A stretch of 55,855 bases of DNA from Terriglobia bacterium (GTDB taxonomy: Bacteria > Acidobacteriota > Terriglobia > UBA7540), in assembly GCA_020072925.1 (NCBI GenBank), contig JAIQGA010000010.1, forward strand, positions 1 to 55,855, in the 5' to 3' direction. Both the position numbers and the translations under genes were made by a program. The notes beneath the pieces are model-generated. The model had not been told where the DNA came from. It did not search any database and saw only the letters and a program-made list of their open reading frames with translations. Shown here one piece after another: positions 14,231-50,274 of this stretch (position 1 is its first letter; each line of letters opens with the position of its first letter).

Positions 14231-15212
14231 ATACCTGGAGGGGCGGCAGCCCCTTCGGGGGATTGAGCTTGACCTTAATGCGCCGCCAGCGGCCGTCCCG
14301 AATGAGGTTGGAGGGTTTGTAACCGATCAGGTACTGGTTGCGGAGCTCGATGGAAATTTTCTCCGCAATATCCGGTAACTCGTTCGGATCCTCCACGCTG
14401 AACATGCGTCCCCCGGAAACTTCCGCCAGTTCCGCCAGCAAGCTGGGGCCGCCGGCCTCCTCGGGAGTGCGGCCGCGGGAGGCCAGGGGCTCGAAGATCC
14501 CTACGGCGTAGATTTGCACGTCGGATTCCTTCACGGCCTTCTTGATGTCGCGTTCCGTGTACCGGCTGTGGTTGTCCCCGCCGTCGGAAATCACCAGCAA
14601 CGCCTTGCGATTGGTCGTCCCCTTCTTCATTTCGCTCAAGCCCAGGTAGATGGCGTCTAACAACGCCGTTCTTCCGCCCGATTTCACAAACAACAAGCGG
14701 TCCTGCAGATTTTCGAACTTCGACGTGAAGCCCGTGATGAGATTAGGCCGATCGCTGAAATTGATCAGCATAAACTCATCCTGGGGGTTAGATGTTTTGA
14801 AGAACTGGAGGGCTGCTTCCTTGGATTTCGGAATTTTGTCTCCCATCGAGCCGCTGCTGTCGAAAATCAGGCCCACGGAAATGGGAGCATCCTCTGTGGA
14901 AAAAGTGGCGATGCTTTGGGGGACTCTTTCGTCATAGACCTGGAAATTGCCTTCGTCTAGCCCCGTCACGATACGATCGTAGGGATCGGTCACTGTTACA
15001 TTCACCATCACCAGGTTCACATCTACCTGGATGGGGGCCATGTGGACGGGGGGCTTGCGAACCGTGACCCGCGAGGGGTCGTCGACGCCGGCTGGAGCCG
15101 GCTTCTGTTTCTCATCGGCTCGGAACTGAGGATTCGGGATAACCACGCACACGGATGCGAGCAGTCCGATGGCGCCCCACCGCCAAATCGAACGCAAGCT
15201 AAGTGCGGTCAT
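14196..15212 (-). CDS. VWFA-related domain exported protein (upstream copy)
   Basis: 338 residues, same architecture as its neighbour: N-terminal hydrophobic signal, VDVNLVMVNVTVTD beta segment, MIDAS FDSSGSMGD, ISDGGDNHS block and C-terminal ARTGYYAPT. The two proteins are clearly paralogous, suggesting a tandem duplication, and may form a heteromer. GAGGG lies about ten bases before the ATG. Confidence 0.88.
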   Translation of the reverse strand: MTALSLRSIWRWGAIGLLASVCVVIPNPQFRADEKQKPAPAGVDDPSRVTVRKPPVHMAPIQVDVNLVMVNVTVTDPYDRIVTGLDEGNFQVYDERVPQSIATFSTEDAPISVGLIFDSSGSMGDKIPKSKEAALQFFKTSNPQDEFMLINFSDRPNLITGFTSKFENLQDRLLFVKSGGRTALLDAIYLGLSEMKKGTTNRKALLVISDGGDNHSRYTERDIKKAVKESDVQIYAVGIFEPLASRGRTPEEAGGPSLLAELAEVSGGRMFSVEDPNELPDIAEKISIELRNQYLIGYKPSNLIRDGRWRRIKVKLNPPKGLPPLQVYARTGYYAPTQ

Positions 15213-47877: not shown

Positions 47878-48018
47878 CCATTGAGTGATTGAGTGATTGG
47901 GTGATTGAGTGAATTGAAAAATTACTCTGATGCCATTTGGGGTCTTGCCCTTTACAGACAGGCTTGACCTGAAATCACCAATTCGCTCAATCGCTAAATC
48001 ACCCAATCACTCAATGAC
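47878..48018. repeat. Word-repeat block 16 (ATTGAGTGATTGGGTGATTG words, inverted arms)
   Basis: Left arm (47879-47914) CATTGAGTGATTGAGTGATT; right arm (47974-48017) CAATCGCTAAATCACCCAATC words. The right arm includes the stop codon of aroF. Words match blocks 3, 4 and 14. Confidence 0.82.
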
Positions 48019-49072
48019 TCAGTTCGGCGCGCGCCTCCGTCGTGTGCGCGGTGGTGCGGCCCAGCACGCCGGCGATGGCTGTGACTTCTCCCATCAGCGC
48101 CTCGAACTGATCCGGGTAGAGAGACTGATACCCATCCGAGAGCGCGCGTTCCGGCTCAGGGTGGACTTCGACAATCAATCCATCCGCCCCCACCGCCACT
48201 GCCGCGCGTGCCAGAGGCGTGACCTTGTCGCGCTTGCCCGTCCCGTGACTGGGATCGGCGATAATGGGCAAGTGCGAAAGCCGCTTGACGGCCGGGATCA
48301 CGCTCAGGTCCAGCGTATTGCGCGTGTGGTCGGCAAACGTTCGCGAACCCCGCTCGCACAGGATGACGTTGTAGTTGCCCTCGGCGAGGATATATTCCGC
48401 CGCCATCAGGAACTCTTCCAGCGTGGCGGACATGCCGCGCTTCAAAAGCACTGGGCGCTTCGACCGTCCCACGCGTTTCAGGAGCGAGAAGTTCTGCATG
48501 TTGCGCGCGCCCACCTGGAGCACGTCTGCGAATTCTTCCACCAGGTCGCAGTTTTCCGGGTCGATGGTTTCCGTGACGATCATGAGGCCGAACTCCCGCC
48601 GGACCTCCGCCAGGATTTCGAGGCCTTCTTTCCCCAGGCCTTGGAAGCTGTAGGGCGAGGTGCGCGGCTTGAAGGCGCCGCCACGGAACAGTCGCGCGCC
48701 GGCACGGCGCACGCGCTCCGCCGCTGCGAATGCTTGCTCGCGGCTCTCGATGGCACATGGTCCGGCGATCACCTGGAGCTCCTGGCCGCCGAAGGTGACT
48801 CCCGCTTCCTCCGGACCAACCCGGATCAGCGAGTCTTCGTTCTTCACCTCGCGGCTGACCAGCTTATAGGGCTTCGAAACCGGTATGGCCTCGGCGACGC
48901 CGGGAAGGCATTCGAATTCCTCGGGCTCAAGCGGCCCTGGATTGCCCGTAATGCCGATGGCGGTCCGCTGCGCGCCCGGCATCGGATGGGGACGATACCC
49001 CAGCGCCTCGATTCGCTGGCAAACCCGGCGAATGTCTTCTTCCGTCGCTTGCGGCTTCATGACGATCAGCAT
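48011..49072 (-). CDS. aroF: 3-deoxy-7-phosphoheptulonate (DAHP) synthase
   Basis: First step of aromatic amino-acid synthesis: PEP + erythrose-4-phosphate to DAHP. 353 residues from [17 protein letters not shown], which matches the N-terminal ferredoxin-like regulatory domain of this subgroup. The catalytic barrel has [73 protein letters not shown] and [20 protein letters not shown] precedes the chosen ATG. An in-frame ATG at 49252 also has GAGGT upstream and would add 60 residues without family similarity. Expression is probably controlled by the attenuator about 210 bases upstream. Confidence 0.93.
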
Positions 49073-49283
49073 GCTGCCTTCTTTCTGCCCATTTCCTGCT
49101 TCGGAGAGGGAACGACCAGTGTAGTCAACTCGGGCGCGGGACGCAAACGCCGGGTTCGCAGGCTGCGTTGATCGGCGCTCGTCCTTTCGATTAACGCTGT
49201 TCGTCCTTTCCTCTTCGGAGGTCAGGGTGGAGGCTAGGGATTCGGGTTCCATGGATTACCTCACAAGGGAATTTGGCCCATGA

Positions 49284-49323
49284 AATCAAAAAGGCCCGCT
49301 GACCTTTTCGATCAGCGGGCCTT
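49284..49323 (-). terminator. Attenuator terminator of the aroF leader
   Basis: Perfect 12-base stem (AAGGCCCGCTGA/TCAGCGGGCCTT), 9-base loop, followed on the minus strand by TTTTTGATTT. It lies between the aromatic-rich leader peptide and aroF. Its 5' arm can alternatively pair with an identical copy of TCAGCGGGC at the end of the leader peptide gene. Confidence 0.85.
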
Positions 49324-49348
49324 GCTTACTTCCGAACTTGCTTACGCC

Positions 49349-49426
49349 TTACGCGGGCGCCCGCTGACACCTCCGCCAAAAGCTAAAGTAATAAAAGAAG
49401 CGGCCATGTGTCAGCGAGGAATACAT
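49349..49426 (-). CDS. aroF leader peptide (aromatic attenuator)
   Basis: 25 codons, ATG to TAA. Codons 10-17 read F F Y Y F S F W: seven of eight are aromatic, covering all three end products of the pathway aroF starts. The first part (CGCTGACAC, 49408-49416) is complementary to GTGTCAGCG at the end of the peptide gene (49362-49370). The stop codon falls just beyond that second segment, as in classical attenuators. The ribosome site is weak (TAGG), and the promoter leaves only a very short untranslated leader. Confidence 0.8.
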   Translation of the reverse strand: MYSSLTHGRFFYYFSFWRRCQRAPA

Positions 49427-49439
49427 AGTGCGAAAACCT

Positions 49440-49468
49440 AAAATACAGATCCCGCCGGAGCCTGTCAA
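49440..49468 (-). promoter_or_regulatory. Promoter of the aroF attenuator transcript
   Basis: On the minus strand: perfect -35 TTGACA (49463-49468), 17-base spacer, -10 TATTTT (49440-49445, four of six consensus bases). The expected start of transcription would lie only about 6-8 bases before the leader peptide ATG. Confidence 0.65.
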
Positions 49469-49582
49469 GGAGAATTTGGGAGAATTTGTGAAATCCCTTG
49501 ATCGATCATGCCCCCAGCCAGCAATTCCTCTATACCCCGAATGCATCTGGCAGTTAGGGCCCGAAACGTGTTAGCATACGGT

Positions 49583-49900
49583 ATGGGAGGCCGTAGGGGA
49601 ACAAGGGGAACTGGGCAATGTTTATTCCACGAGAAAGTCACTGATGAGGACGGCGACCTATACGAGGCCATTATTTGGAGAGTGCCAGTGAGCAGCAAGT
49701 ACCGGGAAGGTATCCGCTATCGCTTGGCCTTCATCCGATCCGGGGAAGGCACACCGGCTGTGCTTTATGACAACCATCACCCGAAGGGCCACCATCGCCA
49801 TCTTGGGCAAAGGAGAGAGCCTTACGAATTTCAGGGTGTGCACCGCCTGCTTCAAGATTTCCGCGATGATGTTGGGCGAGTTAAGGAAGGCAAATTATGA
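49583..49900 (+). CDS. TumE-like (DUF6516) toxin candidate
   Basis: 105 residues from the ATG at 49583; upstream ATGs at 49508 and 49541 are also in frame and none has a clear ribosome site. The core LFHEKVTDEDGDLYEAIIWRVP, YREGIRYRLAFIRSG, VLYDNHHPKGHHRH and YEFQGVHRLLQDF matches my recollection of the TumE/DUF6516 family, proposed toxin partners of HTH antitoxins. The stop overlaps the next gene by 4 bases. Assignment is by pattern, without a search. Confidence 0.7.
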   Translation: MGGRRGTRGTGQCLFHEKVTDEDGDLYEAIIWRVPVSSKYREGIRYRLAFIRSGEGTPAVLYDNHHPKGHHRHLGQRREPYEFQGVHRLLQDFRDDVGRVKEGKL

Positions 49901-50274
49901 ACCGGACGCTAACGATTCGTATCAAACCTGTGGTGAAGATGTTGGCTGACTTTCGCGACACCTTCAAGGCCGTTGAGGAGGGACGGAAGGTCACGCCTCG
50001 AAGTGGAGGGTACTTCACCAACATCGAGGCGGCGCGCAACTTTTTCACTCGCGAGAGGCTGGCCCTGCTGAGCGCTATTCGCAGGGAGCGGCCTGGCTCG
50101 ATCTCCGAACTTGCGAGGATAGTGAATCGGAGCCTCAAGAGCGTGCAAACTGACCTCAAGGTTTTGGAGAAGCACGGCCTTGTCAGGTTTCGCCCAGCGC
50201 GCCGCGCGGCCCGGCGTGCCAGCAAAGCTCCCGAAGCACCCTACCGGGAAATTGCCCTCAGGATTGCCATTTAG
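49897..50274 (+). CDS. Winged-HTH antitoxin candidate (TumA-like)
   Basis: 125 residues. The middle RERLALLSAIRRERPGSISELARIVNRSLKSVQTDLKVLEKHGLVRF is a winged helix-turn-helix of the MarR/ArsR kind, likely binding its own promoter. The basic C-terminus (RPARRAARRASK) may contact nucleic acid or the partner. Starts within the stop of the TumE-like gene (ATGA), so they are co-translated. Confidence 0.75.
   Translation: MNRTLTIRIKPVVKMLADFRDTFKAVEEGRKVTPRSGGYFTNIEAARNFFTRERLALLSAIRRERPGSISELARIVNRSLKSVQTDLKVLEKHGLVRFRPARRAARRASKAPEAPYREIALRIAI

Follow-up and report, generated by a model that had tools for sequence, protein, structure and literature searches.

A candidate ribosome-mediated attenuator with its own promoter upstream of aroF in a Terriglobia bacterium

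Multi-amino-acid leaders are familiar from branched-chain operons, and an aromatic leader in control of aroF has a precedent in aroR of C. glutamicum. In this organism aroF is attenuated via the Phe-Tyr-Phe leader aroR and responds to Phe, not to Tyr, limitation (Neshat et al., 2014, as related in PMC4046766 and PMC11802643). Phe-sensing leaders with attenuation precede pheA and pheST of E. coli (PMC11802643), and for Shewanella a survey assigns to aroF an attenuator that senses Tyr-tRNA (PMC2659441). For the Acidobacteria, a 2010 survey gives almost no attenuators with an assigned function (PMC2965389).

We analyzed a stretch of 55,855 nucleotides from a Terriglobia bacterium of the Acidobacteriota (contig JAIQGA010000010.1; here called the window), in which a leader region lies upstream of aroF on the minus strand. 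Its unusual traits are a leader with three kinds of aromatic amino acids and a layout with two promoters. We favor, with a probability of roughly 0.6, that this region is a lineage-specific ribosome-mediated attenuator with its own promoter (P1), placed ahead of the ancestral promoter of aroF (P2).

Anatomy of the leader region

All parts of an attenuator are found on the minus strand in the correct order and spacing (Table 1), which supports the favored reading.

Table 1. Features of the aroF upstream region in the window, from the distal promoter to the gene.
Feature	Coordinates	Strand	Basis or remark
Distal promoter P1, TTGACA-17-TATTTT	49440..49468	-	10/12 consensus match
Leader ORF, 25 codons, MYSSLTHGRFFYYFSFWRRCQRAPA and stop	49349..49426	-	sequence/translation
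Control codons FFYYFSFW = TTC TTT TAT TAC TTT AGC TTT TGG	49376..49399	-	translation, pattern searches
Segment 1 (CGCTGACAC)	49408..49416	-	pairs with segment 2
Segment 2 (GTGTCAGCGGGC)	49359..49370	-	alternative partners: segment 1 or segment 3
Segment 3 (AAGGCCCGCTGATC), terminator 5' arm	49310..49323	-	
Segment 4 (GGTCAGCGGGCCTT), terminator 3' arm, then TTTGATTT	49291..49304	-	
Proximal promoter P2, TTGCGT-17-TACACT	49118..49146	-	position of promoter conserved in aroF orthologs
aroF, DAHP synthase (PF18152 + PF00793, NF006421), 353 aa, ATG 49072	48011..49072	-	domain matches, ortholog starts

The two boxes of P1 (TTGACA at 49468-49463 and TATTTT at 49445-49440, separated by 17 nt) were found where a first-pass annotation of this DNA had placed them. 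P1 is the sole promoter-like site of such quality reported on the minus strand within 2.7 kb; by chance, 0.7 sites with a 10/12 match are expected in the shuffled 2.7-kb region. Transcription from P1 is predicted to start at about 49433-49429, only ~3-7 nt ahead of the leader ATG (49426), and no Shine-Dalgarno sequence precedes this ATG. From this combination we infer that the leader must be near-leaderless. Several attenuator leader peptides of S. lividans are leaderless (PMC8079986), and the title of a reference in PMC4046766 describes the ilvBNC leader of C. glutamicum as produced with no ribosome binding site.

The leader ORF proved to be exactly as annotated, including the run FFYYFSFW at 49399-49376. 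As expected for an attenuator, this run of aromatic codons precedes the gene for the first enzyme of aromatic synthesis. The stop codon (49351-49349) is located just after segment 2. The complementarities proposed between segments 1:2, 2:3 and 3:4 and the repeated 9-mer were likewise recovered: CGCTGACAC (49416-49408) and GTGTCAGCG (49370-49362) are exact reverse complements, and TCAGCGGGC is present twice, at 49367-49359 and 49302-49294, with each copy complementary to 49320-49312. The annotated strong, U-tailed terminator upstream of aroF (49323-49291, minus strand) consists of a 14-bp stem with one G-U pair, a GAAAA loop and a T tail, and its stem-loop has a computed energy of -27.7 kcal/mol. 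It is located between leader ORF and aroF, as an attenuator demands, and directly upstream on the minus strand there is no other gene for it to serve. Folding of the leader RNA gave z = -4.8. No Rfam family matched the window at its gathering score.

Predicted switching and chance expectation

To describe the switch in silico, the RNA was folded from its predicted start to just short of segment 4, with a ribosome set on each codon and the footprint size varied. With the A site at Phe1 or Phe2, the core of the terminator 5' arm was sequestered by segment 2 at 0.98-0.99 for any footprint, and with the ribosome at Tyr1 at 0.96-0.99, the smallest footprint excepted. Sequestration varied with the assumed footprint at Tyr2 and Phe4, dropped to ~0.1 at Phe3 and mostly to ~0.1 at the Ser codon, and reached 0.55-0.99 at Trp. 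A ribosome on the stop codon left the arm core sequestered at 0.11-0.23. The value was 0.10 in the absence of a ribosome, because the 1:2 pairing then forms. The mutually exclusive pairings switch with ribosome position in these calculations only before segment 4 is transcribed: the 3:4 duplex has an energy of -28.8 versus -21.3 kcal/mol for 2:3, and the full-length RNA at equilibrium always formed the terminator. Since the terminator wins at equilibrium once segment 4 exists, antitermination would have to be kinetic.

According to the folding model, sensing is firmly favored at Phe1, Phe2 and Tyr1 and less firmly at Trp, and finds no support at Phe3. The predictions thus support the joint sensing originally proposed for Phe and Tyr, less securely for Trp, and do not point to equal sensing of the three.

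The favored mechanism would operate as follows. Transcripts from P1 would start almost at the leader AUG and would be translated as near-leaderless messages. A shortage of Phe-tRNA or Tyr-tRNA would make the ribosome stall at the first aromatic codons and mask segment 1, and the freed segment 2 would pair with the terminator 5' arm, so that polymerase would continue into aroF. A ribosome that translates to the stop codon would instead mask segment 2, and without any translation segments 1 and 2 would pair; either way the terminator would form and the output of P1 would end. Unattenuated basal expression of aroF would be supplied by P2.

Among 1500 shuffled leaders, a single one reproduced this three-way logic of stalling, stop and no translation. 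In 1.2% of shuffles there was a 9-mer able to pair with the 5' arm of the terminator, and a start-led short ORF with at least seven aromatics in eight codons was seen at a rate of 1e-4 in shuffled leaders. Across 1.47 million strand-bases of related loci, we counted 316, 64, 11 and 1 start-led short ORFs with at least 4, 5, 6 and 7 aromatics per eight codons, respectively, which corresponds to 2.7e-4 ORFs of the densest class expected per 400-nt sense region. The exact codon pattern of FFYYFSFW had one match in 40 genomes of the order, at the present locus. With one mismatch allowed, 24 other sites were found in 396 genomes of the phylum, mostly within T-rich frames of short length, with a few lying in open frames that are longer; an aroF homologue is encoded at none of these loci. 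The combination of elements is far beyond chance, and coincidence is a poor explanation for it.

The conserved proximal promoter and the relatives of aroF

The aroF gene stands alone, and the DAHP synthase that it encodes carries a ferredoxin-like domain. The compared orthologs start at a MLIVMKP-like sequence that matches ATG 49072. A start at ATG 49252 (413 aa) was rejected on account of these ortholog starts and of the flat codon-position GC of the extension 49252-49073 (0.60/0.57/0.62, versus 0.69/0.46/0.78 in aroF), and this in-frame stretch is probably non-coding. ATG 49252 does have a good Shine-Dalgarno sequence (TGAGGT) and is in frame with aroF, although composition argues against coding; readthrough RNA from P1 could yield from it a 60-residue N-terminal extension of AroF. 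Antisense to aroF runs an open frame of 413 aa (47930-49171, plus strand) that has no NCBIfam match and probably just reflects the high GC. Next to the leader and divergent from aroF, at 49508-50274 on the plus strand, are genes for a toxin-like protein with a TumE domain, whose start is perhaps 49583, and for an HVO_A0114/ArsR-type HTH protein, likely a TumE-TumA toxin-antitoxin module; a search of 39 other genomes of the order did not find the toxin.

Between terminator and aroF, ~145 nt beyond the former, lies P2. A TANRCT motif 15-60 nt ahead of the aroF ATG was present in 84 of 123 orthologs, whereas a shifted window used as control had it in 3 of 122. It is accompanied by a -35 TTG in 69, and the conserved promoter, TTG-N17-TANRCT, is seen in orthologs of the class such as L003-L021, L033-L048 and L114-L204. 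Among same-family orthologs 14/18 carry TANRCT, all with TTG at 17-18 nt spacing. This conservation indicates that aroF is very probably also transcribed from P2. Because P2 is downstream of the terminator, attenuation can govern only a second, distal promoter, P1. The first-pass annotation had spoken of a complete attenuator upstream of aroF and had named aroF transcription starting downstream of 49284 as evidence against it. Anatomy and folding logic fit an attenuator, but with a conserved promoter downstream of 49284 "complete" is too strong, and at most P1 is gated.

The leader itself was expected to be conserved in close relatives, and within the family it is not. An aromatic leader this dense together with a terminator was found upstream of none of the 18 aroF orthologs from the same family, whose proteins are 80-88% identical, and of none of ~105 further orthologs across the class and beyond, a set in which a few upstream regions are short where the contig ends and the genus is represented by this one genome. 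Searches by blastn detected no leader homologue in the ortholog upstream regions, and comparison with 396 genomes of the phylum gave short chance matches only. Elsewhere in its own genome, trpE, pheA and a second aroF showed no aromatic leader with terminator in front of them. Upstream of trpE a TTCGA-type simple repeat gives a Phe-rich chance frame, and the second aroF, also a DAHP synthase gene, sits close behind other genes. The repeat directly before trpE (L242, contig C4, ~14940-15070) is degenerate and forms a weak hairpin.

The search pipeline does recover a classic Trp leader from another phylum. In L051 (2564-2720 and downstream; a MAG labelled Proteobacteria) the leader MHFSANNWWWREMERVRPRS and two tandem terminators precede aroF, followed by trpE, and this element, with NNWWW in its leader, is a Trp attenuator on the aroF-trpE pair. 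Attenuator sensing systems evolve fast, as stated in PMC2965389, and absence from relatives is thus compatible with an attenuator. The element in the window either arose in this lineage or has been lost from the others; we think that it is new and was built ahead of the ancestral P2.

The alternative that survives best, although clearly less probable, is that leader ORF and terminator form a short transcript unit without bearing on aroF, a coincidence or relic, with P2 alone making aroF and the terminator insulating it. P2 is conserved in orthologs and kept in the window, and the relatives manage without a leader, just as this explanation would have it. Strong terminators are also found upstream of aroF in L040 and L126, and the occurrence of such terminators just upstream of P2 at some other aroF loci fits insulation; at least one belongs to the upstream gene (L126, where it comes after a longer upstream gene and was rejected as an aroF attenuator). 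T-rich intergenic runs, moreover, give chance aromatic-rich ORFs in other genomes. However, an aromatic run, an antiterminator complement and switch logic are jointly improbable directly before an aromatic gene, and no minus-strand gene immediately upstream requires a terminator.

A role in trans for the leader RNA or peptide once transcription has terminated, whether or not aroF is also controlled, is improbable. The model would be rnTrpL/peTrpL of Sinorhizobium: the attenuator leader peptide peTrpL can indeed work in trans (PMC7298713), but here peptide and RNA are unconserved in relatives. Least plausible of all, the GCTGA/TCAGC repeats would be operators of the divergent TumE-TumA type operon and not RNA arms, for which the TumE-domain and HVO_A0114-type HTH genes starting from ~49508-49583, with the inverted repeats within ~220 nt, could be cited, yet on the aroF strand two of the repeats make up a perfect terminator with a U tail, and the repeats lie away from any recognizable plus-strand promoter.

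Significance and comparison with known systems

If functional, the proposed attenuator would be a concrete example from the Acidobacteriota whose signal can be read. It would also offer a clear instance of a single lineage acquiring an attenuator before a promoter that already worked, and could help to explain the gain of such switches. With two promoters in the layout, the simple view of the attenuator as sole control of aroF needs correction. We suggest only tentatively, and regard as rather doubtful, the full picture in which one near-leaderless leader senses all three aromatics and tunes the common first step, as an acidobacterial attenuator newly acquired ahead of an older promoter that escapes attenuation, and giving basal and starvation-induced modes of aroF expression.

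The leaders LeuL, TrpL and IlvL of S. lividans resemble the present one in that the message begins at or beside the AUG (PMC8079986), but they are actinobacterial and concern other amino acids. With E. coli pheA and pheST the locus would share a Phe-sensing leader and attenuation; those genes, however, belong to the terminal Phe branch or encode a tRNA synthetase, whereas aroF stands at the first common step. Leaders of the E. coli trpL type, including that of L051, have the same control codon principle, four segments and a stop codon at which a terminating ribosome masks segment 2. They differ in carrying Trp runs where Phe, Tyr and Trp codons are found here, and the present leader precedes a single gene and has no Shine-Dalgarno sequence. 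In C. glutamicum aroR-aroF, as here, consecutive aromatic codons precede a DAHP synthase gene, and in aroR stalling relieves termination. The Terriglobia locus belongs to a different phylum, has seven aromatics of three kinds in its leader, and adds a conserved, unattenuated promoter between terminator and gene.
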